Source: Terebella lapidaria (lineage: Eukaryota; Annelida; Polychaeta; Terebellida; Terebellidae). From it: a stretch of 64,000 nt of DNA. Shown here piece after piece: positions 12,151 to 64,000 of this stretch. A program made the translations under genes and the position numbers. Below the pieces are notes generated by a model. It ran no database searches and was not told the DNA's origin. It saw nothing but the letters and a program-made list of their open reading frames with translations. Location: NCBI GenBank assembly GCA_949152475.1, contig OX424569.1:20249170-20313169 (forward strand), in the 5' to 3' direction. Each line of letters starts with the position of its first letter. Positions within the stretch are counted from its first letter, which is position 1.

Positions 12151-12220
12151 AAGTTATCAGACCATCGGTCCGATCACCTATTGGCTAGCCGGTAAGCTAC
12201 AGGTCCCTTGGGCCTATGTT

Positions 12221-18978: not shown

Positions 18979-19530
18979 GTCGTCAGCAGCTATTGGGCTG
19001 CCTTTAGCTTTATAAACCGCAACATTTTACGGGTTTAACATGCACAAAAATGTGGCAGATAATTATGTGGCGGCCGCCAGATAATTATGTGGCAGCCGCC
19101 AGATAATTAAGTGGCGGCCGCCAGATAATTAAGTGGCGGCCGCCAGATAATTAAGTGGCGGCCACCAGATAATTAAGTGGCGGCCGCCAGATAATAGACT
19201 TATGTTCATAGACTTATGTTTGGTACATTTGGATAATACATATTTATTCATATGCACACAAACTCACGCACACACTTATAAATATGCATAATCACATACA
19301 TGTATATTCATGAACACATACATATACTGTACCAAGCAGCCGTCAGCAGCTTTTGGGCCGCCTACTGCTGAGTTAAACATCCAAGGACATGTTTAACGTA
19401 AAGATAGATAACGACATTATTTTTTCTCGCCTAAGTGTCGACCATTTCTGTAACATTGCACGTATACCAAAGAGTGTAAAATCAACACTTTGCGTATACC
19501 CTGAAACCGTCAGCAGCTTTTGGGCCGCCT
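18979..19530 (+). repeat. Three copies of a GTCAGCAGCTTTTGGGC hairpin motif
   Basis: The motif CGTCAGCAGC-TTTTGG-GCCGCCTA occurs near 18981, 19341 and 19507, the first as CTATTGGGCTGCC. It can form a short hairpin (AGC/GCT with GGC/GCC) like the outward hairpins at family X ends. It may therefore mark element termini of a further subfamily. The intervening sequence is AT-rich and non-coding. Confidence 0.45.
19060..19197 (+). repeat. 22-bp minisatellite with GGCGGCCGCC palindrome, 6 copies
   Basis: The unit is GTGGCGGCCGCC plus AGATAATTAA (or AGATAATTAT), repeated six times with few changes. Each unit contains the self-complementary GGCGGCCGCC, so the array can fold. It is GC-rich and CpG-bearing in an AT-rich neighbourhood. 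Confidence 0.9.
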
Positions 19531-39066: not shown

Positions 39067-39538
39067 AAAATAGAGCCATAGGGCTCTGCGCTTACCGGAC
39101 CCAAGATATATGTTTCAGTTATATGTAAGCTGAAAGCAATGTCATGAAGTCATGAGAATAATTGCACATCATTCACGCCTAAAACTTGCTCTACGTAAGT
39201 CGATCGTGTTAGATCCTAATATACATTGATATGAAACTAGAATGGAAAGGACTAGTACTGTCAAAGATATTCTTTCCTTTTGTATTGGTTTCAGAATATA
39301 TAATTTCCTATATGCTGACAATTGATTCCTAAGCTGTAAAGTTGATAATAAGCGAGATATTAGCCATTTTGTGCTGTGACCTTGAAAATTAGGTCGACGG
39401 TCAAAATCAAGGTGACGAGAATAATCGCCATATATAATTTCCTATATGTGTACAATTGATTCCTAATTTATAATCCCAATATTAGGTGAGATATTAGGGG
39501 AAATTTGTCCCCATTATAAAGCATAGGCTAGTTTAATT
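39067..39538 (-). mobile_element. Truncated element with GCAGAGCC-hairpin end (minus)
   Basis: 39067-39290 is the reverse complement of 9130-9352, starting with the hairpin AGAGCC-ATAG-GGCTCT then GCGCTTACCGGACCC. It continues into about 1.5 units of the 134-bp repeat (39290-39535). It ends where the long inverted repeat 39539-41194 begins, so it was truncated or interrupted there. Confidence 0.75.
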
Positions 39539-41194
39539 CCCAACAGATAATTTCTGAATTTAAGCAAGGCCTCTGCATAAAAATTACCAGTAATGATAAA
39601 ACTAAACAATCCAATAATAGACCAGTACGGATCCTGTAATTTCCCTTCTATTGCATTGGAATCAAGGCACCATAGAATGCCAATTAAGGTCACTCCTACC
39701 ACGTGTTTGTTGGTCTTTTCAGCTGCCATTAACATGGGAAATATCTCTGCCTCAATATCTCTGCCCCATGCACCAGTTTTGTTCTGCGTCTTTTCAGCTG
39801 CCATTAACATGGGAAATATCTCTGCCTCAATATCTCTGCCCCATGCACCAGTTTTGTTCTGCGTGGCAAATGGAGCGTGGCAAATGGAGCATGTTCATTG
39901 TTGATTGGTTGCCGGTTGACACAGGAGTTGCCCCTTATGTATGATACAGTAATGACAGGTGATTTGTTTGTCCAGAACGATATGACAGTTACCTGAAAAC
40001 AATGCAGTAGCTCAAGATAAATGTTCTATGCCAATGAACGCTTTGACCTCTAGTCTCAAGAATGATTACACGGCAAATTTGGAATGGCATTTACATGTAT
40101 ACATCCCAAGTTAGACCTTTTTGCATTCACAAAATTGAGAAGGGTTTTATGCAATGACATTTGACATCAAGAACAAAGACATCCCTGACACAAGATATTG
40201 TGGTTAACATGGGAAATTTCTTGCCGTCTTTCTCATTCCATCCATGCCCTGTAGGGTTTTGAACAACCCCTAGTGGTTAATGGCTCTAGTCCCTGTGCTT
40301 ACGAGGTCAATGTTGATATAAATAATAGATTCAATGAAGGACAGCCCACAGACCAATTGCATCATCACAGACCAATTTCATCGTCTCAGCTCAGATGATA
40401 CTAACATATGAAGGGGGACGCGCTGTCAGATCCAGTGAATGCATGAAATAGGGTCATGAATTTATCACTGATGACATCAACGTTGACCTTGTCGGGACGA
40501 AGGTTCTCTTTCAAAAGATCAGTCATATGTAATGAATTCCTGAAACAAGTGATGTGCTAGAACAACATATCAGAAGACCTTCAATTAAGGACACGAACTA
40601 GAGCCCATTAACCAGTAGGGGCTGTTCAAAACAAAACACAGACCATGAATGGACTGAAACAGACAACAAAGATGGTTCCCATCTAGACCATTTTGTCAAG
40701 GAGGTCTTTGACCTTTGTGTCAAATGCCACTGCACCAAATATAGTTCACCTTGCGAATCCAGAAGATCCAAGTTGGAATGAACATGTATATACCAATGCT
40801 TATTTGCTGTGTAATCGTTCTTGAGACTATAGGTCAAGCTATGATTGGCACACATATTTATGTGCCATACATAAGGGGTAATCATTTTTATTGTATTAAA
40901 TACATCAGCACGATTATGCTACTGTGTCAACAGGAAAGCTTTTCAACAATGACCATGCTTCATTTGCCACGCAGAACAAAACTGGTGGGTGTTCAGTCAG
41001 GGACCCTTCCCATGCTCATGACAGCTGATAAAACGATCTAAGAATGATTTTTACTGGCTTTTTTTTGTGCCATGATTACAATGCAATAGAAAGGAAATTA
41101 CAGGATTTGTAATAGTCTATTATTGGATTGTTCAGTTCCAATACTGATAATTCTTATGCAGAGACCTTGCTTATATTCAAAAATTATCTATTGG
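39539..41194. mobile_element. 1.66-kb element with long inverted arms
   Basis: The left arm (39539 to about 40300) and right arm (about 40560-41194) are inverted copies: CAACAGATAATTTCTGAATT against the complement of TTGAATATAAGC...; GCAAGGCCTCTGCAT against ATGCAGAGACCTTGC; and GAACAACCCCTAGTGGTTAA against TTAACCAGTAGGGGCTGTTC. The centre is 40300-40560. No transposase is seen. Arms differ by about 15-20 percent by eye, so it is old. No target duplication is clear. Confidence 0.75.
39715..39864 (+). repeat. 75-bp tandem duplication in the left arm
   Basis: Two copies start at 39715 and 39790 (TTTTCAGCTGCCATTAACAT ... TTTTGTTCTGCGT). They are nearly identical and in frame (75 is divisible by three), which creates a repetitive open frame FSAAINMGNISASISLPHAP. 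The right arm has only one copy, so this is a later local duplication. Confidence 0.9.
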
Positions 41195-44391: not shown

Positions 44392-45326
44392 TACGGAAGC
44401 GTAGAAGGGCCACTATGTAGTTTTTTATTTTTTAATTTCCCGAGTTATAACTCGATAATATCGACCTATATCTCGATAATATCGACTTATATCTCGATAA
44501 TATCGACTTATAACTCGATAATATCGACTTATAACTCGATAATATCGACTTATATCTCGATAATATCGACTTATATCTCGATAATATCGACTTATATGTC
44601 GATAATATCGACTTATACCTCGATAATATCGACTTAAGAGTGGATCAGGCACAGGGAGATTTATTTTTTTCAAATTCCCGAGTTAGTAAGTCGATAATAT
44701 CGAGTTAGTAACTCGATAATATCGAGTTAGTAAGTCGATAGTATCGAGTTAGTAAGTCGATAATATCGAGTTAGTAACTCGATAATATCGAGTTAGTAAC
44801 TCGATAGTATCGACTTAGTATCTCGACTTAAATCACAGCATATGATGTATAGTCTGCCTGTGCATATACGTAATGAGAAAACAAATAAACATTACTGATT
44901 TTATATGAGAGTCAAATACTGTTAGAACTCTAATATGTAATTAATGTAATTGATATTTACATCAGAGGGGAAAGTTTTCATTTTAGATATCATTTATTTC
45001 AATGTTCACACGGGGACATATACGCCAATTGACACAGTCGTTATTGGTTACCCACGTACATTATACATGCATGTACATATTGGGCGGACAACCCTGATAT
45101 ATTAAGTCAATATTATCGAGATATAAGTCGATATTATCGACATATAAGTCGATATTATCGACATATAAGTCGATATTATCGAGATATAAATCGATATTAT
45201 CGACATATAAGTCGATATTATCGAGATATAAGTCGATATTATCGAGATATAAGTCGATATTATCGAGTTATAACTCGGGAAATTAAAAAATAAAAAACTA
45301 CATAGGGGCCCTTCTACGCTTCCGTA
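44392..45326. mobile_element. 935-bp foldback element with 6-bp target duplication
   Basis: The ends TACGGAAGCGTAGAAGGGCC and their complement are immediately flanked by GTATCT on both sides (44386-44391, 45327-45332). The first 73 bases of the two arms differ at about one position. Each arm continues as a 21-bp minisatellite (TCGATAATATCGACTTATAT). A third array (44675-44830, with GAGTTAGTAACTCGATAATA) lies between. The interior has no transposase, and the near-identical arms suggest recent mobility or gene conversion. Confidence 0.9.
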
Positions 45327-45540: not shown

Positions 45541-46013
45541 CCAACGGGCCTATGGTCCGATAACCTATTGCCATCACGTTGCGTCCGTCGTCCGTCCGTC
45601 CACATTTTTATCTTTAAAGTGTACGGTCCAATCTTTCTGAAAATTTGGGAAAAGATATCTTAAAACTAGACGTCAAGGCCTAAAGGCCTTGGAGGCATTT
45701 CAGGGTGACACATGAAAAAGAACAAAATGCTGACTCAGCAACACATGATAAGCTCCTAATGAGACCTATAAGACATTTGTGCAATTACATGTATTGCCGT
45801 TTCGCTCTGCGAAGCACAGTTTTCGAGATATCGACGGAAATGAAAAATGCTGACGATGCAAATAAATTCCAGGTCAAGGTCAAAGGTCATCCCTAGTGCC
45901 CCTTAAATATGTATGTCTAGGACCACGAGTCCGAAAATAACGTCCGTTTCGCTCTACGACTCACCTTTTCCGAGATATCAACGAAAACGAAAAATGTCGA
46001 CTCAGCAAAAAAA
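45541..46013 (+). mobile_element. Family X A-end fragment (plus), cut by X3
   Basis: Starts within the A-type hairpin (GGGCCTATGGTCCGATAACC), then GCGTCCGTCGTCCGTCCGTC. About 45870-46000 resembles the foldback loop at 5400-5520 (GTGCCCCTTAAATATGT). It is interrupted at 46013 by copy X3 in the opposite orientation, next to an A-run. Confidence 0.7.
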
Positions 46014-48105
46014 ATTAGCCCAAGGGCTAAGAAAGGTTACCGGACAATATACATTTTAGATATTAGCCTTTTGTCCAGTGACCTTGAAAATAAAGTCACT
46101 GATAAATTCAAGGCCATGAAATTTTCAACAAATATATCACTTCTAGTATGTCCACAATAAATTCCTCAGCTGTAAAGTCGATAATAAGTGAGACATTAGC
46201 CATTCTGTGATGTGACCTTGAAAATGAGGTCAAAGTTCAAGTTCATGAAAATATTCAGTATATATCATTCCTCTATATTCGCAATTGATTCCTATGCTGT
46301 AAATGTAAGTATCAATCTATTACCACCAATACAATAAGATTTTGATGATGCCAATAAGAAACGTAAAATACTACATTTTGCAATAGAAACAAACAAAGCT
46401 CGACCAAATAGTTTATCCAAAGACACACTGGCGTCTTCAGGGGCAGACAATGTGTTAAATGTAGTTGTTTCTACTGTACACCAGATGGAATTAGTATACA
46501 ACTGCCCAACAACCTATGAAAATAATTTAGAAATCCGAATCTAACCCCATGGAATAGATACATGACAAGTACAAAAGTACCCAATCACAAGCCCGAAGGC
46601 TACTGAGTTGATGGTATCCTCGGGGACAGATTTAACGTCCGCCAGCAGTGACACTGACTCAGTGGTATAAATGTAAGTATCAATCTATTACCACCAATAC
46701 AATCAAATTTTGATGACGCCAATAAGAAACGTAAAATACAACATTTTGCAACAGAAACAAAGCCCGACCAAATAGTTTATCCAAAGAGGGGCAGATGTAA
46801 AGATGATAATAAGCGACATATTAGCCATTTTGTTCTCTGACCTTGAAAATGAGATCAAAGGTCAAATTCTAGATCACCAAAATATTCAGCATACATCATT
46901 TCCTATATGTTCACCATGGACCCCTAAGCTGTAAATTTGATAATAAGCGAGATATAAGCCATTTTGTATTCTGACCTTGAAAATAAAATGACTAACCTTG
47001 AAATTTAGGTCAAGGGTCAAATTCAAGGTCACTAGAATATTCAGCATATATCATTTCCTATATGTTCACAATTGATTCCTAAGCTGCAAAGTTGCTAATA
47101 AGCAAGATATTGGCCATTTTGTCCTGTGACCTTGAAAATGAAGTCAAAGGTCAAATTCAAGGTCACGAGAATATTCAGCATATATCATTTCCTATATGTT
47201 CACAATTGATTCCTAAGCCGTAAAGTCGATAATAAGCGAGATATTAGCAATTTTGTCCTGTGACCTTGGAAATGAGGTCAAAGGTCAAGTTCAAGGTCAC
47301 GAGAATATTCAGCATATATCATTTCCTATATGTTCACAATTGATTCCTAAGCTGTAAAGTCGATAATAAGCGAGATATTAGCCATTTTGTCCTGTGACCT
47401 TGAAAATGAGGCCAAAGGTCAAATTCAAGGTCATGAGAATATTCAGCATATATCATTTCCTATATGTTCACAAAGTCGATAATACGCGAGATATTAGCCA
47501 TTTTGCCCTGTGACCTTGAAAATGCGATCAAAGGTCAAATTCAAGGTCATCAGAATATTCGGCTGATATCATTTCCTATATGTCCACAATTGATTCCTAA
47601 GCTGTGAAGTCGACAATAAGCGAGATATTAGCCATTTTGTTCTCTGACCTTGAAACTGAGGTCAGAGGTCAAATTCAAGGTCACGAGAATATTCAGCATA
47701 TATCATTTCCTATATGTCCACAATTGATTCCTAGTCTCTAATCTCAATATTAAGTGAGATATTAGGCTTTATGTGTCCCATTATAAAGCATAGGAAAATT
47801 TAACATGGGAAAGTCCCATTTGGGACGAGTTTGGGCCCAAAATGGCCCACTTTGAGCGATTCAAGGGCAACGAAATTTGTACATGGCACAGGGGTACATA
47901 TGAGGAGTGTGCCTTTTACATGTTAAATTTCCTATCTAAAATAGGCACACAACTCCCCAAAATAGGCACACAAGAAGAAATTTCCGCACAACTTATGGTT
48001 GTGTGCCTTTTCTAGTCACACAAGCATACTCTCGTCCGCCCGGATGGACGGACGACGGACGCAACGCCATGGCAATAGGTTATCGGACCATAGGTCCGGT
48101 AACCT
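46014..48105 (-). mobile_element. Family X copy X3 (B end left, A end right)
   Basis: It begins ATTAGCCCAAGGGCTAAGAA and ends CCATAGGTCCGGTAACCT. The 134-bp array has about 10-11 units (46060-46300, then 46800-47770). The A-side tail runs ATTATAAAGCATAGGA, then GGGCCCAAAATGGCCCAC, then GACGGACGACGGACGCAACG. Two secondary insertions interrupt it: about 46300-46800 and about 47912-48030, the latter rich in inverted AGGCACACAA / TTGTGTGCC. Confidence 0.85.
46300..46800. repeat. Segment with a 125-bp direct repeat inside X3
   Basis: AAATGTAAGTATCAATCTAT begins two copies at about 46303 and 46672 (369 apart), both including AATAAGAAACGTAAAATAC and CGACCAAATAGTTTATCCAA. The segment interrupts the 134-bp array. 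Its origin is not recognised. The minus-strand 69-codon frame has no domain. Confidence 0.7.
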
Positions 48106-49266
48106 AAAATTGACATTTTACATCATGACGCCATTGGCGTTCCACATAGCGTGTTGAAACTCGGTATATGGCTTGGTATTGATATTTCACATAAGTTCCC
48201 ACAATGACAGTCCAATACCTTCAAATTTGAGTGCATTGTGGATGTTTGAAAGTTTGCCGAAAAATTGGTATGACGGGCCTTACGTTTATGACGTCATAGC
48301 GGAAAATCTATCATGGCGGAAAAATATCGGACAGTACCCTCCTGAACCAGAATTCAACTAACTTTCCAATGGTGCAATCCGCTTCTCTGTACGACAAATA
48401 CTTTCCAATATATAGCTCCATTTTGAAAATTGATGTTTTACGCCATGACGTCATTGACGTTCAACCGATCCAAGTAAAACTTCGCAGTATGATGAATAAT
48501 ATCAACATATTTCGGTGTGGGAAATTTCAGAGGTATCGGTCCAAATATGACTGCTGTGTGATTTTTTTAAAATTCGCCAATGATGAGAGATGGGGATTTT
48601 TCGAGTTTTCAAGAATTTTTGGTGACGTCATCAATGAACCGATTTCTTCCAAAACAGACAGACATCTGCAAGTGACCAACATACTTGGCGAAAATCGAAG
48701 ATGTAAACCCAAATGCAATACTTGGCGAAAATTGAAGATGTAAACCCAAATGCAATACCCTCTCCCCCTATCACGGCGAGGGTAAAAAGTTATGCATGGA
48801 AAAGTGTATATATGTACATGGAAAAGTTCTTATAGACCAACAAAATTAGGTAGGTTAGATTTTTTCAACAAATATTCTTTCTTTGAAATTACATGAGCAG
48901 GGGAGGGGTAAAGTCTTTTGGAAACTAAATACCTCTCTACTGCTTGATAACAAAAACAAAGATATTATTAAACAATTGATAAGGCATGAAGTAGATCGAT
49001 ACAATAATAGATGACAGTACTATTTATTTTTTGATATTTTCAAAAATAAATGAACTTGGTGCGGTAATAGGTTGGAATTTTCAGGTGTTGATAGAGCGCA
49101 CAAATAGAAGGCCTGCTTGTCCCCCATAGGTCAACCACTGGTAACTCGAAGCATTCGGGTTGAACACAACCTACAAGTAGAAACAGAATACAATGAACAA
49201 TTGACAAACTGGACAAATCTCCATGGCAGCAATTGGCAATATGCTATATCTACATAACATTTACAA
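48106..49266. other. Unassigned sequence between X3 and X4
   Basis: No gene is recognised. ATGACGCCATTGGCGTTC (48125) and ATGACGTCATTGACGTTC (48446) form a spaced direct repeat with palindromic cores, and both are followed by similar text. A 36-bp tandem duplication (GATGTAAACCCAAATGCAAT) lies at about 48699-48760. Confidence 0.45.
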
Positions 49267-49912
49267 TTAGCCCAAGGGCTAAGATAGATTACTGGACAAT
49301 TTTGGTTTTAAGCATTGTAAATGACATATGACTGAGAGTTACCAGTTGAGGTAAATAGTGGAGTGAGTGGCGCAGTGGATAAGGCGTCGGACTCATAATC
49401 CAAAGATAATGGGTTCGAGTCTCTGTGCTATTTCACTAGTGCCCTTAGGCAAGACATTTACCACTAATCTGTCTATGTTCACCCAGGATTTAAATGGGTA
49501 CCGGTTGATAATGGGTGTTGTATAGAGCGCTTTAAGTGTGGCTGCTCCAAGTACATTCACTCAGACTGGGGTTAAAGTGTAAAGTGCCTTTGAAAGCGGA
49601 TTAAGTTCGGCTGTAAAGAGCGCCATATCAAATGTGATAACTTATCTTTGTGAACTTCAATGTCCCCACTAGGTTTGCTGCATATGACTTTATATATGTC
49701 CATAATACATACATACAAGCTCTATCAACAAGTACTTTTTCTGTAGAGGCCAAGTCACATACATGTACCTATATGTCAGGTCAGGCAAGATTTTGACATT
49801 TGGCCTTCAAGGTCGTTTATGGTCAAGTTCAAGGCCACCAAAAGATGTGCCATATACACCTGACATTTTATAGGTTTATACACAATCCAAATCTGTATGT
49901 GCAAGTGTTTAA
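49267..49912 (-). mobile_element. Family X copy X4, B-end only, with a SINE inside
   Basis: ATTAGCCCAAGGGCTAAGAT starts a B-end whose sequence follows 62246-62560. A SINE at about 49363-49636 splits it after ACCAGTTGAGG. The A-end is missing; the copy fades near 49912. It has no 134-bp array. Confidence 0.75.
49363..49636 (+). mobile_element. tRNA-derived SINE
   Basis: The head GTGAGTGGCGCAGTGGATAA and GGGTTCGAGTC fits the internal RNA polymerase III promoter: A box TGGCGCAGTGG and B box GGTTCGAGTC, spaced about 35 bases. The anticodon position reads CAT (ACTCATAATC), like a tRNA-Met. The body has GCCCTTAGGCAAGACATTTA, a conserved-core-like block. The tail has TAAAGTGCCTTTGAAAGCGG and ends near GAGCGCCATATCA. 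It is inserted in X4. Clear target duplications were not found. It is not a functional tRNA gene because of the body and context. Confidence 0.85.
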
Positions 49913-49978
49913 CGTAGTCCACTACAAACAGTGAGACAATGAAGAGTCAAAATTTGAGTTATTTCTTGAATATTATTT

Positions 49979-50250
49979 CTTCAAAATGACCTATTTTATA
50001 AAGTAACTGATCAGCTTCCTATACTGAAAAGAAAATAGGGGATCATGGTGCTGGTTTCTTCGATATATTTGATCAAAATCACAAACATTTACCTAAAATG
50101 ACATAAATTATGACATTTTTGCACATTTTTTGTCCCATATTCACATCATGCTTGCATCATGCTTTCCATGTGAACGATACGGTGACCCTCTATTTTCTTT
50201 TCAGTTTCAGGATGCTGATCAGTTACTCTATAAAATATGTCATTTTGAAG
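49979..50250. mobile_element. 272-bp MITE with about 65-bp inverted ends
   Basis: Left CTTCAAAATGACCTATTTTA then AGTAACTGATCAGC pairs with right GCTGATCAGTTACTC and TCATTTTGAAG. Mismatches are few (about 10 percent). The interior is about 140 bases and non-coding. No target duplication is obvious. Confidence 0.85.
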
Positions 50251-50286
50251 CTCTAGATTATGTTGATATTGTTATGTATTAAAAAA

Positions 50287-51697
50287 AATTAGCCCAAGGG
50301 CTGAGAAAGGTTACCGGAAAAATATTTAGTTTTGAAACAACTTTTTCCATCAAAATTGCCGTATTAACCTTTCAAGGTCATTGAGGGTCAAATTTACGGT
50401 CACCATCAAAACTGCAATATATGATTTCCCATGTGATACTACCAATATTTTAGCTCTATCTTGAAGTGTTCTAGGAGTTTACTCCATACAGCTCCCATTA
50501 TGAAGGAAAAATTAGGTTAAAGGTCAAATTCAAGGTCACAAAAATATTCACCACATATCATTTCATATGTACACAAGTGATTCCTGAGCCATGAAGTTGC
50601 TAACAAATAAGATATTAGCCATTTTGTGCTGACCTTGAAAATAATGTCAAAGGTCAAATTCAAGGTTATGAGAATATTCAGTTTATATTAATTCCTATAT
50701 GTACAAAATCGATTCACAAACTGTAGAGTCAATAATCAGCAAGATATTAGTCATCCTCTGCTCTGACTTTGAAAATAAGGTCAAGGTCAAGTTCAAGGTC
50801 ATGACAATATTCAGCACATATCATTTTCTATGTGTTCACAATTGATTCCCAATTTCCCAAGCTGTAAAGTCGATAATAAGCGAGATAACAACCATTTTGT
50901 TCTGAGACCTTGAAAATGAGGTCAAGGGTCAAATTCAAAATCACGAGAATCTTAGGTATGTATCATTTCCTGTAGTCCACAGTTGATTCCTCACCTGTTA
51001 AGTTGATATTAAGCAAGATATTAGTCATTTTGTGCTCTGACCTTGAAAGTGAGGTCCAAGGTCAAATTCAAAGTCATGCCAATATCCATAATATATGATT
51101 TCCTATATGTGCATAATTGATTCCTAATCTGTAACGTCAATAATAAGCTAGATATTACCCATTTTGCGCTTTGACCATGGAAATTAGGTCAGAGGTCAAA
51201 TTCAACGCCATCAAAATATTCAGCATACTTGATTCCTAAGCTGTAAAATCGATAATAAGCAAGATATTAGCCATTTTGTCCTATGACCTTGACAATGGGG
51301 TCAAAGGTCAAATTCAAGGTCATCAGAATATTCAGCATATATCATTTCCTATATGTCCACAATTGATTCCTAAGCTGTAAAGTCGATAATAAGCGAGATA
51401 TTAGACATTTTGTACTCTGACCTTGAAACCGAGGTCAGAGGTCAAATTCAAGGTCATGAGAATATTCAGCATATATCATTTCCTATATGTCCTATATAGG
51501 AAACAATTGATTCCTAGTCTCCAATCTCAACATTAAGTGAGATATTAGGCATAATGTGTCCCATTATAAAGCATAGGAGAATTGAACATGGGAAAGTTCC
51601 ATTTGGGCCAAAATGGCCCACTTCGAGCGATTGAAGCGCAACGAAATTTACAGACATCATAGGAGTACATATGAGGAGTGTTATGTATCAAAAAGAA
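50287..51697 (-). mobile_element. Family X copy X5, A-side cut by a D-end element
   Basis: The B-end ATTAGCCCAAGGGCTGAGAA is followed by a 454-type piece (50350-50510), a 134-bp array of about 8 units (50515-51560), and the start of the A-side tail. It stops in AAAAAGAAAAA at 51697, where a D-type end begins. A copy with the full tail at this point is X6 (54480). Confidence 0.8.
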
Positions 51698-52072
51698 AAA
51701 CATAGCACCAAAGGTGCTATAGCTTACCGGCAATCATGTGAATTGCGTAGAATACTGAATACATATAAATTATTACACTGATGTTAAAATCAATATGTTA
51801 AAACATCTTTGTAAATGTTGATAGAAACACATTGAAAGTCCGAAACAATTTTCAATGGCCAAAAAAAAAAATTTTTTGTTGTTGCTGGAAATGGCTCAAA
51901 ACGAAAAGTGACTCGATTAGGGATTATTTTGGCCGACCCGTCAGAAAATCAAAATGGCCGCCCCACGCAGACCGTCATTTCAAAGACATCAAAATTTATA
52001 CACATCACAAAGGTACATAAAGAGAATCTTATACATGATTTTGAGGAAAACTGTCTGAATAGATTTCGAGAA
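51698..52072 (-). mobile_element. D-type end (minus), truncated by X6
   Basis: CATAGCACC-AAA-GGTGCTATAG then CTTACCGGCAATC begins a copy of the end at 16980-17133 in reverse. It then continues into 454-type sequence (AAGTGACTCGATTAGGG). X6 enters at 52073 after TTTCGAGAA. Confidence 0.75.
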
Positions 52073-54761
52073 ATTAGCCCAATGGGCTACTAAGGTTACC
52101 GGAGAAATATACAGAGTTAAGCCGAGAAAGTTGAAAGTCAAATTCAAGGTGACCACTGAAATCGCCATATCTCTAACCGTGAAAATGGGATCAAAGGTTA
52201 AATTCTAGATCACCAAACTATTCAGCATACATCATTTCCTATATGTTCACTATGGACCCCTAAGCTGTAAATTTGATAATAAAACGAGATATAAGCCATT
52301 TTGTAATCTGACTTTGAAAATAAAATGACTGACCTTGAAATTTAGGTCAAAGGTCAAATTCAATATCATTAAAATATTCAGAATATATCATTTCCTATAT
52401 GTTCACAATTAATTCCTAAGCTGTAAAGTCGCTAATAAGCAAGATATTGGCCATTTTGTCCTGTGACCTTGAAAATAAGTCAAAGGTCAAATTCAAGGTC
52501 ACGAGCATTTTCAGCATATATCATTTCCTATATGTTCACAATTGATTCCTAAGCTGTAAAGTCGCTAATTTATAAGCAAGATATTGGCCATTTTGTCCTG
52601 TGACCTTGAAAATAGGTCAAAGGTCAAATTCAAGGTCACGAGCATTTTCAGCATATATCATTTCTTATATGTTCACAATTGATTCCTAAGCTGTAAAGTC
52701 GCTAATAAGCAAGATATTGGCCATTTTGTCCTGTGACCTTGAAAATGAGGTCAAAGGTCAAATTCAAGGTCACGAGAATATTCAGCATATATCATTTCCC
52801 ATATGTTCACAATTGATTCCTAAGCTGTAAAGTCGATAATAAGCGAGATATCAGCAATTTTGTCCTGTGACCTTGGAAATGAGGTCAAAGGTCAAATTCA
52901 AGGTCATGAGAATATTCTGCGTATATCATTTCCTATATGTTCACAATTGATTCCTAAGCTGTAAAGTCGATAATAAGCGAGATCTTAGCCATTTTGTCAT
53001 GTGACCTTCAAAATGAGGTCAAAGGTCAAATTCAAGTTCCTGAGAATTTTCAGCATATATCATTTCCTATATGTTCACAATTGATTTCTAAGCTGTTAAG
53101 TCACTGATAAGCAAGATATTGGCCATTTTGTCCTGTGACCTTGAAAATGAGGTCAAAGGTCAAATTAAAGGTCACGAGAATTTTCAGCATATATCATTTC
53201 CTATATGTTCACAATTGATTCCTAAGCTGTAAAGTCGCTAATAAGCAAGATATTGGCCAATTTGTCCTGTGACCTTGAAAATGAGGTCAAAGGTCAAATT
53301 CAAGGTCATGAGAATATTCAGCATATATCATTTCCTATATGTTCACAATTGATTCCTGAGCTGTAAAGTCGATAATAAGCGAGATATTAGCAATTTTGTC
53401 CTGTGACCTTGGAAATGAGGTCAAAGGTCAAATTCAAGGTCATGACAATATTCAGCATATATCATTTCCTATATGTTCACAATTGATTCCTAAGCTGTAA
53501 AGTCGATAATAAGCAAGATATTAGCCATTTTGTCATGTGACCTTGAAAATGAGGTCAAAGGTCAAATTCAGGGTCATGAGAATTTTCAGCATATATCATT
53601 TCCTATATGTTCACAATTGATTCCTAAGCTGTAAAGTCGATAATAAGCGAGATATTAGCCATTTTGTCCTGTGACCTTGAAAATGAGGTCAAAAGTCAAA
53701 TTCAAGGTCACTAGAATATTCAGCATATATCATTTCCTATATGTTCACAATTGATTCCTAAGCTGTAAAGTCGATAATAAGCGAGATATTAGCAATTTTG
53801 TCCTGTGACCTTGGAAATGAGGTCAAAGGTCAAATTCAAGGTCACGAACATATTCAGCATATATCCTTTCCTATATGTTCACAATTGATTCCTAAACTGT
53901 AAAGTCGATAATAAGCGAGATATTAGCCATTTTGTTATGTGACCTTGAAAATGAGGTCAAAGATCAAATTCAAGGTCACGAGAATATTCAGCATATATCA
54001 TTTCCTATATGTTCATAACTGATTCCTAAGCTGTAAAGTCGATAACAAGCGAGATATTAGCCATTTTGTCCTATGACCTTGAAAATGGGGTCAAAGGTCA
54101 AATTCAAGGTCATCAGAATATTCAGCATACATATCATTTCCTATATGTCCACAATTGATTCCTAAGCTGTAGAGTCGATAATAAGCGAGATATCAGCCAT
54201 TTTGTGCTCTGACCTTGAAATTGAGGTCAGAGGTCAAATTCAAGGTCACAAGAATATTCAGCGTATATCATTTCCTATATGTCCATAATTGATTCCTAGT
54301 CTCTAATCTCAATATTAAGTGAGATATTAGGCATAATGTGTCCCATTATAAAGCATAGGAGAATTTAACATGGGAAAGTCCCATTTGGGCCGAGTTTGGG
54401 CCAAAATGGTCCACTTCGAGCGATTCAAGCGCAACGAAATTTATAGACATCATAGGAGTACATATCTGGAGTGTTATGTATCAAAAAGAAAAAAAGTTAC
54501 TGAACAGATTTTGAGAAAATGGCCACCAAAGTCCAAAATCAGGCATTTTTCGTCGAAAACGGCCGCCATTTTGAAAAAAATGCGAAAATCAAAAAACTAA
54601 AAAATACCTCCTTCTTGAATTATTTTTAAGTATTTTTGTGCAAAATTTCAGAAGAATTCGCCCGTAAACAAAAAAGATAAAAATGTGGACGACGACGACG
54701 ACGACGGACGACGGACGCAACGCCATGCCAATAGGTTATTGGACCATAGGTCCGGTAACCT
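52073..54761 (-). mobile_element. Family X copy X6, about 16 repeat units
   Basis: The B-end variant TTAGCCCAATGGGCTA (perfect stem, one-base loop) opens it. The array of about sixteen 134-bp units runs from about 52150 to 54310. The tail and the A-end (CCATAGGTCCGGTAACCT) close it at 54761. Both ends are complete. No transposase. Confidence 0.9.
52150..54310 (-). repeat. 134-bp array with nuclear-receptor half-sites (X6)
   Basis: The consensus unit holds TGACCTTGAAAATGAGGTCA, AGGTCAAAGGTCA and TTCAAGGTCA, then ATATCATTTCCTATATGTTC, ACAATTGATTCCTAAGCTGT and AAGTCGATAATAAGCGAGAT. The period is 134 (measured at 55441, 55575 and 55709 in the sister array). Half-sites are seldom mutated relative to the rest. 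Confidence 0.9.
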
Positions 54762-54789
54762 AAAAAAGGCGAAAATCAAAAATCTAAAA

Positions 54790-57410
54790 ATTAGCCCAAT
54801 GGGCTAGAAAGGTTACCGGAGAAATATACAGAGTTAAGCCGAGAAAGTTGAAGGTCAAATTCAAGGTGACCACTGAAATCGCCATATCTCTAACCTTGAA
54901 AATGGGATCAAAGGTTAAATTCTAGATCACCAAACTATTCAGCATACATCATTTCCTATATGTTCACTATGGACCCCTAAGCTGTAAATTTGATAATAAG
55001 CGAGATATAAGCCATTTTGTAATCTGACTTTGAAAATAAAATGACTGACCTTGAAATTTAGGTCAAAGGTCAAATTCAATATCATTAAAATATTCAGAAT
55101 ATATCATTTCCTATATGTTCACAATTGATTCCCAAGCTGTAAAGTCGATAATAAGCGAGATATTAGCCATTTTGTCCTGTTGACCTTGAAAATGAGGTCA
55201 AAAGTCAAATTCAAGGTCACTAGAATATTCAGCATATATCATTTCCTATATGTTCACAATTTATTTCTAAGCTGTAAAGGCGCTAATCAGCAAGATATTG
55301 GCCATTTTGTCCTGTGACCTTGGAAATGAGGTCAAAGGTCAAATTCAAGGTCATGAGAATATTCAACATATATCATTTCCTATATGTTCACAATTGATTC
55401 CTAAGCTGTAAAGTCGATAATAAGCGAGATATTAGCCATTTTGTCATGTGACCTTGAAAATGAGGTCAAAGGTCAAATTCAAGGTCATGAGAATTTTCAG
55501 CATATATCATTTCCTATATGTTCACAATTGATTCCTAAGCTGTAAAGTCGATAATAAGCGAGATATTAGCCATTTTGTCATGTGACCTTGAAAATGAGGT
55601 CAAAGGTCAAATTCAAGGTCATGAGAATTTTCAGCATATATCATTTCCTATATGTTCACAATTGATTCCTAAGCTGTAAAGTCGATAATAAGCGAGATAT
55701 TAGCCATTTTGTCATGTGACCTTGAAAATGAGGTCAAAGGTCAAATTCAAGGTCATGAGAATTTTCAGCATATATCATTTCCTATATGTTCACAATTGAT
55801 TCCTAAGCTGTAAAGTCGCTAATAAGCAAGATATTGGCCGCTTTGTCCTGTGACCTTGAAAATGAGGTCAAAGGTCAAATTCAAGGTCACGAGAATTTTC
55901 AGCATATATCATTTCCTATATGTTAACAATCGATTCCTAAGCTGTAAAGTTGCTAATAAGCAAGATATTGGCCATTTTGTCCTGTGACCTTGAAAATGAG
56001 GTCAAAGCTCAAATTCAAGGCCACGAGAATATTCAGCATATATCATTTCCTATATGTACACAATTGATTCCTAAGCTGTAAAGTCGATAATAAGCGAGAT
56101 ATTAGCAATTTTGTCCTGCGACCTTGGAAATGAGGTCAAAGGTCAAATTCAAGGTCACGAAAATATTCAGCATATATCATTTCCTATATGTACACAATTG
56201 ATTCCTAAGCTGTAAAGTCGATAATAAGCGAGATATTAGCAATTTTGTCCTGCGACCTTGGAAATGAGGTCAAAGGTCAAATTCAAGGTCACGAAAATAT
56301 TCAGCATATATCATTTCCTATATGTTCACAATTGATTCCTAAACTGTAAAGTCGATAATAAGCGAGATATTAGCCATTTTGTCATGTGACCTTGAAAATG
56401 AGGTCAAAGGTCAAATTCAAGGTCACAAGAATATTCAGCATATATCATTTCCTATATGTTCACAACTGATTCCTAAGCTGTAAAGTCGATAATAAGCGAG
56501 ATATTAGCCATTTTGTCCTGTGACCTTGAAAATGAGGTCAAAAGTCAAATTCAAGGTCACAAGAATATTCAGCATATATCATTTCCTGTATGTCCACAAT
56601 TCATTCCTAGTCTCTAATTTCAATATTAAGTGAGATATTAGGCTTAATGTGTGCCATTATAAAGCATAGGAAAATTTAACATGGGAAAGTCACATTTGGG
56701 CCGAGTTTGGGCCCAAAATGGCCCACTTCAAGCGATTCAAGCGCAACGAAATTTATACATGTCACAGGGGTACATATGAGGAGTGTTTTTCATCAATAAG
56801 AAAGAAAAGTTACTGAAACAGATTTTCAGAAAACGACCGTCGAACTCCAAAATTGGCCATTTTTCGACGAAAACGGCCGCTCTGACCTTGAAACCAAGGT
56901 CAGAGGTCAAATTCAAGGTCACGACAATATTCAGCATATATCATTTCCTATATGTCCACAATTGATTCCTAGTCTCTAATCTCAATATTAAGTGAGATAT
57001 TAGGCTTTAATGTGTCCCATTATAAAGCATAGGAGAATTTAACATGGGAAAGTCCCATTTGGGCTGAGTTTGGGCCCAAAATAGCCCACTTCGAGCGATT
57101 CAAGCGCAACGAAATTTATACATGTCACAGGGGTACATATGAAGAGTGTTATACATCAATAATAAAAAAAGTTACTGAACAGATTTTGAGAAAATGGCCG
57201 CCAAAATCCAAAATTGACCGTTTTTCGACGAAAACGATAGGTCATGTAACCTAAAAATACCTCCCTCTGGAAATATTTTTAGGCATTTTGGCGCAAAATT
57301 TCAGAAAAATCCGATCGTAAACATTAAAGATAAAATTGTTTACGGACGACGGACGGACGACGGACGCAACGCCATGGCAATAGGTTATCGGACCATAGGT
57401 CCGGTAACCT
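54790..57410 (-). mobile_element. Family X copy X7, about 13 repeat units
   Basis: The B-end variant is at 54790, and the A-end CCATAGGTCCGGTAACCT closes at 57410. The array runs 54850-56660. The tail carries an internal duplication: a first tail (56660-56880) breaks at AACGGCCGCTCTGACC and a second partial unit plus tail follows (56880-57330). The same break is in X8, so the two share a recent ancestor. Confidence 0.9.
54850..56660 (-). repeat. 134-bp array (X7)
   Basis: About 13 units with the same half-site layout as X6. Three consecutive units at 55441-55842 are almost identical, suggesting recent unit expansion. Confidence 0.9.
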
Positions 57411-57770
57411 AAAAACTAAAAAATACCGCCTTCTCAAATTATTTTAAGGTATCTTTTCCAAAATTTTCAGAAAGATTGGACCGTAAACTTTAAAGATAAA
57501 AATGTGGACGGACGACGGACGGACGGACGACGGACGCAACGCCACGGCAATAGTTTATCGGACCATAGGTCCGGTATCCTAAAATTCTCCCTCCTCGAAA
57601 TATTGTTAGGTATTCTTGTGCAAAATTTCAGAAAAATTCGCCCGTAAACTTTTAAGATAAAATTTTCACGCCGGAACAGATGGATGAACGCCGGACAAAA
57701 TGCCATGCCAATAGGTTATCGGACCATAGGTCCGGTAACCTGAAAATTGGCCCAAGGGCTGAGAAAGGTT
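57411..57770 (-). mobile_element. Two further stacked family X A-ends and a B-like remnant
   Basis: After the X7 A-end (57410), two more A-type ends follow, at 57580 (CCATAGGTCCGGTATCCT) and 57741 (CCATAGGTCCGGTAACCT). Each is preceded by about 150 bases of A-side tail with GTAAACTTTAAAG. A degenerate B-like GGCCCAAGGGCTGAGAAAGG is at 57749. The pattern implies repeated insertion near the same A-rich spot of earlier copies. Confidence 0.75.
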
Positions 57771-57991
57771 GAAAGCCAATTGATTATTGCAATTCAGGTC
57801 AAATTTGCAACAGAATAATACTGGTCAAGTTAATTGTATAAAATGAATGAAGTTGATTATGCAGCTGTAACGTTGGTGCCTGCAAGACTTTCTTTGGAGA
57901 ATGCCTAGCCTAATAACATAATATAGCATTTGAATCATACACATCACAGCACAGTCCTATATACATAATATAGAAGTTGAGTTCAATGTAC
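57771..57991. other. Unassigned, likely intronic
   Basis: No repeat match. It lies downstream of the last recognised exon of the split minus-strand gene and may be an intron of it. Confidence 0.35.
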
Positions 57992-58069
57992 CTTGTGCAC
58001 TTGACGATTTGATGATTTTGTTATATTGACATCTTCCACTTTGTAGTTTGTCTGCTTCAACTTCTTCGG
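57992..58069 (-). CDS. Putative host exon, 26 codons (unknown protein)
   Basis: On the minus strand an acceptor (TTTACAG) precedes 58069 and a donor (GTACAT) follows 57992. The 78-nt exon is open in phase 0: PKKLKQTNYKVEDVNITKSS then NRQVHK. The phase matches the exon at 58158-58316. The peptide is short and basic, with no domain that I recognise. It would follow 58158-58316 after an 88-base intron. The exon call depends on splice signals and phase only. Confidence 0.4.
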
Positions 58070-58157
58070 CTGTAAATACGGGAAGGAACAGGAGAAAGAT
58101 GAGTATACAATTGACATGCAATATATATATTCACATGGTTATCCATCCAAAACTCAC

Positions 58158-58316
58158 ATAACTGAAGAAAGTGAATTCCAGACATGTATCATCAGAAGGT
58201 CTGCAATCGTTGGCAGCAGTGTTTTCCGATATTTGTTGTCTCTTTGTCCTGCACACGTCCTCATCAGATCCATGTGTATGCGGAGTGTTTGTCACTTCAG
58301 CTGTAGTCATCACAGG
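58158..58316 (-). CDS. Putative host exon, 53 codons (unknown protein)
   Basis: A strong donor GTGAGT follows 58158. The acceptor candidate is GACACGCAG before 58316. The 159-nt exon is phase 0 to 0: PVMTTAEVTNTPHTHGSDED, then VCRTKRQQISENTAANDC and a short acidic/aromatic end. It is polar, like a cytoplasmic tail or linker. The upstream stop in the same frame lies just before the proposed acceptor, which supports an exon start there. It sits between 59395-59523 and 57992-58069. Confidence 0.45.
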
Positions 58317-59394
58317 CTGCGTGTCAACAATGCCAAGTTCACCATGTCAGAAAATTTCTCAGGTTAACGGCAAAGTTAACGATGCTAGATCTATGCAGTA
58401 ATGATTAAGGACTAATATGAACATGTAACGCCAAGCTATTTTATCTATTATGTCGTCGGTGTTTAGTCCAGGCCTAAAAGTGCGGTAAGTCTCAATTTCA
58501 TTTTGTTGTTATTCGAGTTTGACTTGGCAACAGCAGGAAAAGTGAATCGCTGTTTTTGGTCCTTTGTCTGTTTCTGTGTCGGATTTCTGCAAGTTCTTGG
58601 TGAGTGTTGGTTTGATACTGACATATAACAATGGTATCTATGTGTTTGTGTTGCCCTTTATTTTGCCCCGTATTTGAAATATCGTGACTTGGTGACTTGG
58701 TATCGTGAATTGGTGTCATATTGCTTATGCTCCGTAGTGTCAGCCTGTACAATTTACATAGTATGGTATTCTATCTCTAAATGGTTACACCGCCACAGCT
58801 AGGTTACGTAGAGTAATTGTTCTGTATGCTATTTTATTACATTAGATTACATGTAAGTGTTCATTGGTATTCTGTATCACCGTGTGGGTATGACTATAGT
58901 TGTTCAGTGCAGTATGTATGTGCTTACTCATTAGGAACCCGTTTGAGGTGGAAAACCATGACTCTTGTACACAGTACCTCCGGAGTATCCCTGGGGTTAG
59001 ATTTACTCGATAAGTTGTATTTCATGTATTTGGTTGAGTAATATCTTGTCACGTAGTACCATGTGTGTTTGCCTGCAATGAATAGCTACTTGTTTACCTT
59101 ATATAAGGGGATTTTTAGGGGATTTCCAAGATTTTTCTCCTGACGCTTTTATTTATAGAACAAAACGTCAGCGGACGTTTTTGGCCTAGGATAGTCATGT
59201 TTGTACAAAGAGTGTTACAGGGTGAAAGTCTGTTCAACAATGAAGAACTGAAACCTAACGTCTTGTTCGCGTGTTGAACAGAAGAGGTGTCACAAACATC
59301 CTAGTCACAAGTTTTCACTCAAACACCGACAACAAATCTAACATAGACGACAACAGCAAATCTACCATTGGATCACTGCTGAATGACTACTCAC
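58317..59394. other. Probable intron of the minus-strand gene
   Basis: It lies between two candidate exons. It includes half of a MITE (59105-59200). The other open frames have no domain. Confidence 0.4.
59105..59200 (+). mobile_element. Half copy of the 61549-61800 MITE
   Basis: TTTTTAGGGGATTTCCAAGA followed by CCTGACGCTTTTATTTATAG and CGTTTTTGGCCTAGGAT match the left arm of the MITE at 61549. The right arm and TTAA flanks are absent. Confidence 0.8.
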
Positions 59395-59523
59395 AACTCT
59401 GGCTTTGTTGAAGTCTTTGCGACGTTTGTAAGGTTCAATGGTTGGGTACAGCATGTAGTACATGACAGTTCCCCCAGCATCACAGACCACAAGGTTATGT
59501 AACCAGCTGTTGTGGGACATGTC
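59395..59523 (-). CDS. Putative host exon, 43 codons, membrane-like segment
   Basis: Acceptor TGGTTTCAG and donor GTGAGTAG bound a 129-nt exon in phase 0: DMSHNSWLHNLVVCDAGGTV, then MYYMLYPTIEPYKRRKDF and NKARV. VVCDAGGTVMYYMLY could be a short hydrophobic or membrane stretch, followed by basic residues. Its splice signals are the best of the three exons. I do not recognise the family. Family X copies lie both upstream (X8, 59653) and downstream (57770 and below), probably in introns of the gene. Confidence 0.55.
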
Positions 59524-59652
59524 CTGAAACCATGCAAACTTACAAATATTGGCACCATTGGTTATACTTGTTAATATTAACAAATGATCGAGGGGAACAT
59601 TGCTTACTGAGCACTTTGACTCTCGGTCACCTTCGGTCTAGTTCAAGATCAA

Positions 59653-61504
59653 AATTAGCCCAATGGGCTAGAAGGGTTACCGGAGAAATATACAGAGTTA
59701 AGCCGAGAAAGTTGAAGGTCAAATTCAAGGTGACCACTGAAATCGCCATATCTCTAACCTTGAAAATGGGATCAAAGGTTAAATTCTAGATCACCAAACT
59801 ATTCAGCATACATCATTTCCTATATGTTCACTATGGACCCCTAAGCTGTAAATTTGATAATAAGCGAGATATAAGCCATTTTGTAATCTGACTTTGAAAA
59901 TAAAATGACTGACCTTGAAATTTAGGTCAAGCGTCAAATTCAATATCATTAAAACATTCAGAATATATCATTTCCTATATGTTCACAATTTATTCCTAAG
60001 CTGTAAAGTCGATAATAAGCGAGATATTAGCCATTTTGTCCTGTTGACCTTGAAAATGAGGTCAAAAGTCAAATTCAAGGTCACTAGAATATTCAGCATA
60101 TATCATTTCCTATATGTTCACAATTGATTTCTAAGCTGTAAAGGCGCTAATAAGCAAGATATTGGCCATTTTGTCCTGTGACCTTGAAAATGAGGTCAAA
60201 GGTCAAATTCAAGGCCACGAGAATATTCAGCATATATCATTTCCTATATGTTCACAATTGCTTCCTAAGCTGTAAAGTCGATAATAAGCAAGATATCAGC
60301 CATTTTGTCCTGCGACCTTGAAAATGAGGTCAAAGGTCAAATTCAAGGTCACGAAAATATTCAGCATATATCATTTCCTATATGTTCACAATTGATTGCT
60401 AAACTGTAAAGTCGATAATAAGCGAGATATTAGCCATTTTGTCATGTGACCTTGAAAATGAGGTCAAAGGTCAAATTCAAGGTCACAAGAATATTCAGCA
60501 TATATCATTTCCTATATGTTCACAATTGATTCCTAAGCTGTAAAGTCGATAATAAGCGAGATATTAGCCATTTTGTCCTGTGATCTTGAAAATGAGGTCA
60601 AAAGTCAAATTCAAGGTCACGAGAATATTCAGCATATATCATTTCCTATATGTCCACAATTCATTCCTAGTCTCTAATTTCAATATTAAGTGAGATATTA
60701 GGCTTAATGTGTGCCATTATAAAGCATGGGAAAATTTAACATGGGAAAGTCACATTTGGGCCGAGTTTGGGCCCAAAATGGCCCACTTCAAGCGATTCAA
60801 GCGCAACGAAATTTATACATGTCACAGGGGTACATAAGAGGAGTGTTTTTCATCAATAAGAAAAAAAAGTTACTGAACAGATTTTGAGAAAACGACCGTC
60901 GAAGACCAAAATTGGCCATTTTTCGACGAAAACGGCCGCTCTGATCTTGAAACCAAGGTCAGAGGTCAAATTCAAGGTCACGACAATATTCAGCATATAT
61001 CATTTCCTATATGTCCACAATTGATTCCTAGTCTCTAATCTCAATATTAAGTGAGATATTAGGCTTTAATGTGTCCCATTATAAAGCATAGGAGAATTTA
61101 ACATGGGAAAGTCCCATTTGGGCCGAGTTTGGGCCCAAAATGGCCCACTTCGAGCGATTCAAGTGCAACGAAATTTATACATGTCACAAGGGTACATATG
61201 AGGAGTGTTATGCATCAATAAAAAAAAAAGTTACTGAACAGATTTTGAGAAAATGGCCGCCAAAGTCCAAAATCAGGCATTTTTCGTCGAAAACGGCCGC
61301 CATTTTGAAAAAAATGCGAAAATCAAAAAACTAAAAAATACCTCCCTCTCGAAATATTTTTAGGCATTTTTGTGCAAAATTTCAGAAAAATTCGATCGTG
61401 AACTTTAAAGATAAAATTGTTGACGGACGACGACGACGACGGACGACGCCGACGCCGGACGCATCGCCATGCCAATAGGTTACGGACCAAAGGTCCGGTA
61501 ACCT
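59653..61504 (-). mobile_element. Family X copy X8, about 7 repeat units
   Basis: Very close to X7: same B-end variant, same first 250 bases, same internal break (AACGGCCGCTCTGATC), same double tail, and an A-end at 61504 (AAAGGTCCGGTAACCT). It differs mainly in having about half as many 134-bp units (59700-60680). It is probably intronic in the minus-strand gene. Confidence 0.9.
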
Positions 61505-61548
61505 AATAAAAACTGCAGCACATTTTATTTTCTATATGCTGATATTAA

Positions 61549-62245: not shown

Positions 62246-64000
62246 ATTAGCCCAAGGGCTAAGATAGGTTACCGGACAATTTTGGTTTCAAGCATTGTAG
62301 GTGACATATGATTTTGAGATTTACCAGTCAAATTCATCTTTGTGAATCTCAATGTCACCATCAGGTATGCTGCATATGACTTCGTATGTTTATAATACAA
62401 ACATATAAGTTTTATCAACAAGTATTTCGTGTGTATAGGCCAATTTCAGATTTTGAGATTCGCCCTTCAAAGTTAAGGTCAAGTTCAAGGTCACCAAAAA
62501 ATGTGCCATTTATACATGACTTTTTTTACAGGCTTATACACAATCCTAACCTGTATGTGCAAAAGTTTATGCTTCAGAGGCCACTTTCAAGATTTCAAGT
62601 CAGACATTTAGCACTCAAGGTCATCCAAGGTCAAAATCAAGGTCATCATTAGTTGTTCCATATATGACTTCCTATATGTTCATAATGCAAACTGAAGCTC
62701 TATCTAAATGCATTTCATCTGTAGAGGCAAATTTGGGCATTTTTTCACTCAAAAATGGCTGTTTTGACCTTTCAAGGTCATCAAAGGTCAAATTCAAGGT
62801 CCCCTCCCAACTCGCTATATATAACTTCCTATTTGAAAGTGCCAATATCTAAGCTCTATCTTCAAGCGTACTATGAGTACAGTCCTGGCAGCTCCCATTA
62901 TGAAGGAAAAAAGTGCCGAAAATTTTCTAAGTCCAAAATTTTTTTCAAAGGGTGAAAAATTTTTTTTTGTCTAGAAATGACCCAAAATGAATAATAACGC
63001 GATTTGGGGCAAACAAAATTTTTTTCGCCGACGCGTCAAAAATTCAAAATTGCCGCCACACGGAGACCGGCGATTCAAGAGCAACAAAACTTATAAACAT
63101 CATAAAGGTAAGTAAGGAGAATATTTTGAAACAATAATCTCAAAACTGATCAGACAGTTTTCGAGAAAAGACAGGCCAGGTGCAAATTCGAGCATTTCTC
63201 AACCCAAAAATGGCTGTTTTGACCTTTCAAGGTCATCCAAGGTCAAATTCAAGGTCACCACACAAGTCGCCATATATGACTTTCCATTTGAAAGTGCCAA
63301 TATCTAAGCTCTATCTTCAAGCGTTCTATGAGTACAGTCCCGGCAGCTCTCATTATGAAGGAAAAAAGTGCCGAAAATTTTCTAAGTCCAAAATTTTTTT
63401 CAAAGGGTGAAAATTTTTTTTTGCCTAGAAATGGCCCAAAATGGATAGTAATGCGATTTGGGGCGAAAAAAAAAATTTTCGCCGACTCGTCAAAAATTCA
63501 AAATGGCCGCCACACTGAGATCGGCGATTCAAGGGCAACAAAACTTATACACGTCACAGAGGTATATAAGAGGAATCTTCTTAAGCAAAAATCTCAAAAC
63601 TGATCAGACAGTTTTTGAGAAAATACAGACCAGGTGCAAATTTGAGCGTTTTTCGACCCAAAAATGGCTGTTTTGACCTTTCAAGGTCATCCAAGGTCAA
63701 ATTCAAGGTCACCACACAAATCGCCATATATGACTTCACATTTGAAAGTGCCAATTTCTAAGCTCTATCTTCAAGCGTTCTATGAGTACAGTCCAGACAG
63801 CTCCCATTATGAAGGAAAAAAGTGCTGAAAATTTTCTAAGTCCAAAATTTTTTTCAAAGGGTGAAAATTTTTTTTTGCCCTAGAAATGGCCCAAAATGGA
63901 TAGTAATGCGATTTGGGGCGAAAAAAATTTTTTTCGCCGACCCGCCAAAAATTCAAAATGGCCGCCACACGGAAACCGGCGAATTTAGGGCAACCAAACT
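62246..64000 (-). mobile_element. Family X copy X9, 454-bp type, runs off the window
   Basis: The B-end ATTAGCCCAAGGGCTAAGAT and GGTTACCGGACAATTTTGG is followed by about 450 bases matching X1 in reverse. Tandem 454-bp units (63144 and 63598) then run to the window edge at about 2.5 units. The A-end must lie beyond 64000. The open frames reading KCRKFSKSKIFFKG and GDSRATKLIHVTEVY are from the repeat. Confidence 0.85.

Follow-up and report, generated by a model that had tools for sequence, protein, structure and literature searches.

HINE-like Helentrons of Terebella lapidaria carry tandem arrays with clustered candidate nuclear-receptor half-sites

The window analysed here is a 64-kb stretch of contig OX424569.1 in the 761.6-Mb assembly (438 contigs) of the annelid Terebella lapidaria, and much of its 46.8-61.3 kb portion is occupied by arrays of a 134-bp tandem unit (Tandem Repeats Finder) in which copies of the nuclear-receptor half-site AGGTCA are clustered. 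The consensus unit reads TGACCT-8-AGGTCA-1-AGGTCA-6-AGGTCA, that is, an everted repeat with an 8-bp spacer followed by direct repeats with spacers of 1 and 6 bp (ER8-DR1-DR6). A first-pass annotation had placed transposon arrays of some 60-70 such units at 46050-61050; both Tandem Repeats Finder and a profile of the unit recover them, the profile giving at least 61 non-overlapping units in 46000-61200 (7,617 bp) and at least 85 in the window. These profile counts are lower bounds, 21 of the 272 non-overlapping matches in all DNA examined having been lost in name matching. The proposal that HINE-like non-autonomous Helentrons carry these arrays as their central tandem repeats is well supported by the ends flanking the arrays, and the elements and their parts are as follows.

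46017-48107, minus strand: element 1, HINE-like, with palindrome at 46017, right end at 48093-48107 and units at 46079-46325 and 46838-47774
49269-49898, minus strand: left palindrome, diverged subterminal inverted repeat (subTIR) and one diverged unit relative (49802-49898)
50291-51561, minus strand: element 2, with left end and array at 50508-51561
52076-54763, minus strand: element 3, with array at 52176-54343 and both ends present
52734-52867, plus strand: example unit with four half-sites, ER8-DR1-DR6
54793-57412, minus strand: element 4, with array at 54893-56650 and a lone unit at 56883-57000
59657-61506, minus strand: element 5, with array at 59757-60710 and a lone unit at 60942-61076
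59675-59684, plus strand: left subTIR of element 5, GGTTACCGGA, adjoining the palindrome at 59657-59669
61422-61506, minus strand: right end of element 5, with GTC/GTCC-type microsatellite (61422-61461), inverted copy (61478-61488) and subTIR TCCGGTAACC (61494-61503)
62249-64000, minus strand: further element leaving the window, with diverged unit relatives in series (ER4-DR4-DR6 and others)

The interval has six left ends, at 46017, 49269, 50291, 52076, 54793 and 59657, and another, at 62249, belongs to the element that leaves the window; each pairs a palindrome, either AGCCCAAGGGCT-like or AGCCCAATGGGCT-like, with an adjoining GGTTACCGGA or a close form of it. A right end is recognisable for four of the six (at 48093, 54749, 57398, where extra copies are present, and 61492); these right ends combine a GTC/GTCC-type microsatellite and an inverted pair around GGACC-ATA-GGTCC with GGTAACCTAA and A-rich flanking sequence. 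No right end was recognised for the left end at 49269, and none at positions below 52076 for element 2. Element 1 is assigned to the minus strand with the HINE 5' side (subTIR, inverted repeat, microsatellite) at its right, and the stretch of ~46303-46830 between its unit blocks has no unit match to the profile. Behind element 4, four right-end-like words (57240, 57398, 57568 and 57729) follow one another within 57240-57743, and could be either added or nested termini.

The Cg_HINE elements of the oyster Crassostrea gigas have a 5' subTIR with a complementary inverted copy, a GTC-type microsatellite, a central satellite-like array, and a 3' subTIR followed by a palindrome (PMC7492417), and when the ends and arrays in the window are read on the minus strand they give this layout. 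The 5' subTIR with its complementary inverted copy is present as ends of the GGTTATCGGACC-ATA-GGTCCGGTAACC type, a 23-bp end word of which occurs 7,571 times in the genome (mirror word, 0); the GTC/GTCC-type microsatellite lies beside the end of elements 1, 3, 4 and 5; and the 3' subTIR and palindrome are present as a AGCCCAAGGGCT-type palindrome beside GGTTACCGGA, the palindrome having 25 matches with up to three mismatches in all DNA examined. A unit lies within 3 kb of 29 of the 35 right-end-like words for which 3 kb of upstream sequence is present, as against a fraction of 0.344 of random points; 12 more words are too close to an edge, and the word is loose enough that it may match the other end too. 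The copies are flanked by A-rich sequence on both sides, and a 32-bp piece of the unit is found 78,912 times in the genome when three mismatches are allowed (mirror, 0).

Matches to the Helitron N-terminal domain are plentiful (150 scored of 234 candidates), many of them in frames of more than 2,000 amino acids. The 7.8 kb around one coding Helentron (C130) contain three scattered half-sites, with no cluster and no end words of the 134-bp family (hereafter F1), and an autonomous Helentron carrying the 134-bp arrays was thus not borne out in the neighbourhood of this one element. The coding Helentron frame at L049:2872-3344 opens with a 69-bp (23-residue) tandem repeat of 6.9 copies.

Within the window the DR1 word has 58 occurrences with at most one mismatch, where shuffles lead to an expectation of 0.09, and the spacings of exact half-site pairs on the plus strand peak at DR6, DR1 and DR13 and at ER15, ER8 and ER27, as the consensus layout predicts. 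The annotated pattern of four half-sites in every unit holds for the consensus but not unit by unit, since all four are exact in 21 of the 62 near-full units of the window and in 60 of the 172 in all DNA examined; the exact ER8-DR1-DR6 string, with any spacer bases, occurs 18 times on the plus strand of 46050-61050. The initial observation is therefore confirmed in part. Units and their relatives are also present elsewhere in the window.

8738-9123 and 11280-12163, minus strand: further 134-bp units
39290-39510: further 134-bp units
9748-10493 and 62466-63773: relatives of the 134-bp unit

Conservation was assessed by shifting the half-site mask through the 134 positions of the unit, with counts that include the true position. 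Half-site columns are 0.956 conserved in the window units compared with 0.921 elsewhere (6 of 134 rotations as good), and when CpG columns are excluded the 172 near-full units give a half-site mismatch of 0.0495 compared with 0.0847 (3 of 134 rotations). Ranking of individual words places the opening TGACCT second of 129 six-letter words and the other three half-sites 29th, 43rd and 41st; of the extended monomers, TGACCTTGA comes 2nd and TCAAGGTCA 18th of 126; the least variable bases are the TCA of the GTCA side (0.028, 0.039 and 0.027). Exact DR1 survives in 62 of the 172 units and exact TGACCTTGA or TCAAGGTCA in 147, such that an extended monomer of the TCAAGG(T/C)CA type is kept in the element. 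Diverged monomers, some of them serial within one element, keep half-sites while the spacing shifts (e.g. ER4-DR4-DR6). The first-pass annotation was right in direction that half-sites drift less than the rest of the unit, although the effect is modest over all columns, weakens within identity classes (see below) and does not extend to DR1 as a unit. Its emphasis on a perfect DR1 is not upheld, and DR1 as a selected feature is rejected: the 13-mer survives at an average rate (rank 53 of 122) and relatives use DR4 and other spacings. Judging by the word ranks and the spacing changes in diverged monomers, the extended monomer and not DR1 is what is kept, and is the common denominator of the units. 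A second block, at unit columns ~50-80 (CATATATGACTTCC/TTTCCTATATGT), equals the half-sites in its conservation from one diverged monomer to another.

The genome-wide scan for DR1 proposed with the annotation gives 59,461 copies compared with 49 of the mirror word, and TCAAGGTCA occurs 364,916 times compared with 5,590 for its mirror, about one exact copy per 2 kb. Together with the DR1 count in the window, these place consensus half-sites well beyond chance; the dense transposon-borne clusters of the annotation are borne out by the sequence, with genome counts far above what the window shows. A 200-kb sample, made up of 20 regularly placed 10-kb stretches of contigs 1-3, places AGGTCA second of 2,080 hexamers (533 copies; median 83 for words of like composition). 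One stretch, L046, consists entirely of a 1,261-bp satellite and holds 112 of the 533; without it AGGTCA is seventh (421; median 80). Among 9-mers seen at least 40 times in the sample, TCAAGGTCA has the largest excess (219, with 5.2 expected from a third-order model), and words of another repeat exceed it in the ratio of observed to expected. Matches to the F1 profile are present in 12 of 20 stretches and make up 7.5% of the sample (bootstrap 3.7-11.6%), or 7.2% without the L046 hits. Assignment of 377 of the 533 half-sites to F1 is an overestimate because the profile also catches 64 of those in L046.

Half-site clusters also recur in two other repeat families. The 1,261-bp satellite of L046 (F2) contains AGGTCA-A-AGGTCA-AGGTCA-AGGTCA twice per unit, and a 147-bp repeat (F3), present in L033, L003 and the window, has two to three half-sites.

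45665-46009, plus strand: F3 fragment, with AGGTCA-AGGTCA-A-AGGTCA at 45871-45889

Similarity of this fragment to the 134-bp unit was sought and not found, and with half-sites masked the three families have no BLAST similarity to one another at E 0.01. Without masking, the F1-F2 and F2-F3 matches are confined to the clusters (21-34 bp), and F1-F3 has no match at E 0.01. The spacings are ER8-DR1-DR6 in F1, DR1-DR0-DR0 in F2 and DR0-DR1 in F3. An F2 25-mer is found 3,938 times in the genome and an F3 25-mer 578 times, with no mirror copies of either. The two clusters within the F2 unit are identical over 25 bp; in their upstream flanks 53 of 73 aligned bases agree (score 9.5; 200 shuffles have a mean of -3.0 and a maximum of 11.5), and their downstream flanks align at chance.

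Arrays with a period of at least 80 bp number 71 in the DNA examined and fall into 13 clusters, in a set biased by the inclusion of loci chosen for holding DR1. Four of the 13, one of them mostly F1, have at least two half-sites within 45 bp, which is matched by 0, 1, 0 and 0 of 200 random sequences drawn from a first-order Markov model. Representatives of the other nine are without a half-site, and one of the nine includes a member with a single half-site. A 153-bp array (L033:4673-4961) was considered as a fourth family and, despite its own cluster, is not counted as independent because the F1 profile covers 177 of its 289 bp. The F3 relative at L049:4-705, an array without half-sites, would serve naturally as a control for those F3 arrays that bear half-sites; it ends ~2 kb upstream of the coding frame of C130 and looks like a separate insertion.

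Among the other features of the window are two TGACCCAGTGGGA-type repeat arrays in opposite orientation ~0.6 kb apart (4531-5275 and 5904-6411), possibly a fold-back pair, and two neighbouring blocks of 21-22 bp minisatellites with TATTATCGA-like words (44441-44826 and 45103-45277). A 22-bp minisatellite at 19056-19195 (6.4 copies, 95% matches) has GCGGCCGC in every unit, and a 75-bp unit is present as two identical adjoining copies at 39713-39864. By eye, other sequence follows a tRNA-like stretch at 49360-49425, an arrangement resembling that of a tRNA-derived short interspersed nuclear element (SINE); ARAGORN calls no tRNA genes in the window.

The receptor DNA-binding domain has 65 exon-level matches in the genome, and 20 of these loci were cut out and searched for patterns. 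Comparison of three receptor translations with solved structures places them closest to COUP-TF 1 (E 1.5e-43), HNF4 alpha (2.9e-41) and NR5A2/SF-1 (6e-22), which shows the genome to have predicted receptor genes of the COUP-TF, HNF4 and NR5 types. The last is a partial domain at L015 that matches the NR5A2 and SF-1 chains best (E 6e-22 to 2.3e-21, the next match being at 1.4e-17), and so provides a candidate host NR5 receptor gene; it may be of NR5B type. Other host loci hold probable RXR-, NR2C- and NR4A-like receptors.

The HINE layout, the clusters, their genome-wide excess, their recurrence in three otherwise dissimilar families, the mild excess of conservation and the host receptor genes all point towards mobile elements that display monomer-type (NR5/ERR-like) receptor sites aiding their spread, a reading that we hold tentatively and at somewhat less than even confidence. 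The first-pass interpretation is partly supported. TCAAGGTCA is the extended site read by monomer-binding receptors of the NR5/ERR type. Monomers with three to four half-sites, usually with at least one as extended TCAAGGTCA, would be bound in arrays by host receptors acting as monomers or loose dimers; the bound receptors would open local chromatin in the germline or early embryo, the opened chromatin would give the element transcription, or access for its transposition, and the elements retaining their sites would spread best. It is a doubtful further step that several unrelated families converged on the TCAAGGTCA host signal; a monomer-binding receptor would then be their shared way into chromatin of the germline or embryo, and would itself be soaked up or redirected by several hundred thousand sites.

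Several results weigh against a role of the sites in spread. When window units are split into three identity classes, 14 to 16 of 134 rotations are as good as the true position, and between subfamilies the test gives 7 and 9 of 134, counts that are rough since alignment columns beyond ~97 are empty. The DR1 13-mer is no better kept than an average word, and the block around TTTCCTATATGT, without half-sites, is conserved equally to the best half-site. With L046 left out, the remaining 19 sample stretches hold 421 half-sites, 313 of them in F1, and most of the excess is thus accounted for by one founder; and F3-type arrays can do without half-sites, because the L049 relative, a 4.8-copy array near a Helentron gene, has none. 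The F1 share, the modest conservation, the equally kept block and the half-site-free F3 arrays also favour a passenger monomer, in which an ancestral repeat held AGGTCA-like words by chance and rolling-circle amplification with array homogenisation multiplied them; receptors may then bind incidentally, with no gain to element or host. Because one family explains most copies and conservation is modest, we consider this account, incidental binding included, just as likely as spread through receptor sites, even though clusters recur in F2 and F3, otherwise dissimilar to F1, and diverged monomers retain half-sites while spacing shifts.

Subterminal repeats of some plant transposons serve as binding sites for transposon proteins, and the half-site word could likewise be read by an element-encoded protein (Rep/helicase or accessory) instead of a host receptor. 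A short motif in both orientations at variable spacing would suit such a protein, as would the abundance of Helitron N-terminal domains, but the surroundings of C130 lack a cluster, C130 being one coding Helentron and not necessarily the partner, and we know of no element DNA-binding protein with specificity for AGGTCA words; we regard this as improbable. Still less credit is given to the movement of one short half-site tract between families by recombination or cut-and-replace, which would make the sharing a matter of descent rather than convergence. The F1-F2 and F2-F3 matches are indeed single tracts of 21-34 bp, and cut-and-replace has been discussed for the oyster arrays (PMC7492417), but the order of spacings differs from family to family (ER8-DR1-DR6, DR1-DR0-DR0 and DR0-DR1).

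The likeness to Cg_HINE is drawn on layout: the oyster elements have the same arrangement of ends and array and several monomer families, some related in two segments only (PMC7492417). No earlier description of the half-site clusters or of the F1 core words was found in literature text, figures and supplements being outside its scope; AGGTCA is absent from the main text of PMC11136912, TCAAGGTCA is absent from the text of PMC11102866, and CAAGGTCA from that of PMC12848575.

As predicted receptor sites borne by transposons, the clusters are ordinary in kind, with precedents in Alu/HNF4 and SINE B1/NR5A2. Alu repeats contain ~1.2 million HNF4 alpha-binding sequences, and resemble the present case in that receptor sites have been multiplied by a transposable element; Alu is, however, a SINE whose binding was measured on arrays and by chromatin immunoprecipitation, whereas here exact consensus half-sites are seen, from sequence, in tandem arrays of rolling-circle type (PMC3252374). 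In the mouse, NR5A2 binds SINE B1 at genome activation, 73.6% of its two-cell peaks overlap SINE B1/Alu, and enrichment of the TCA extension is strongest for sites in closed chromatin (PMC12848575, PMC11102866). Common to both systems is an extended monomer of the TCAAGG(T/C)CA type in a mobile element, although the mouse motif TCAAGGCCA is one base from TCAAGGTCA (PMC11102866, PMC12848575), and B1 has one site per copy where the arrays have several per monomer. What is unusual among these candidate sites is their carrier, their density and their recurrence in families between which no further similarity was found. Repeats will dominate any motif-based search for receptor targets in genomes of this kind. 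If receptors bind, repeated acquisition of one host-factor site by mobile elements would become testable, as would the way in which a receptor functions among decoys in such numbers, and the arrays would be an invertebrate-type counterpart, in another class of element, of SINE B1/NR5A2 and Alu/HNF4.

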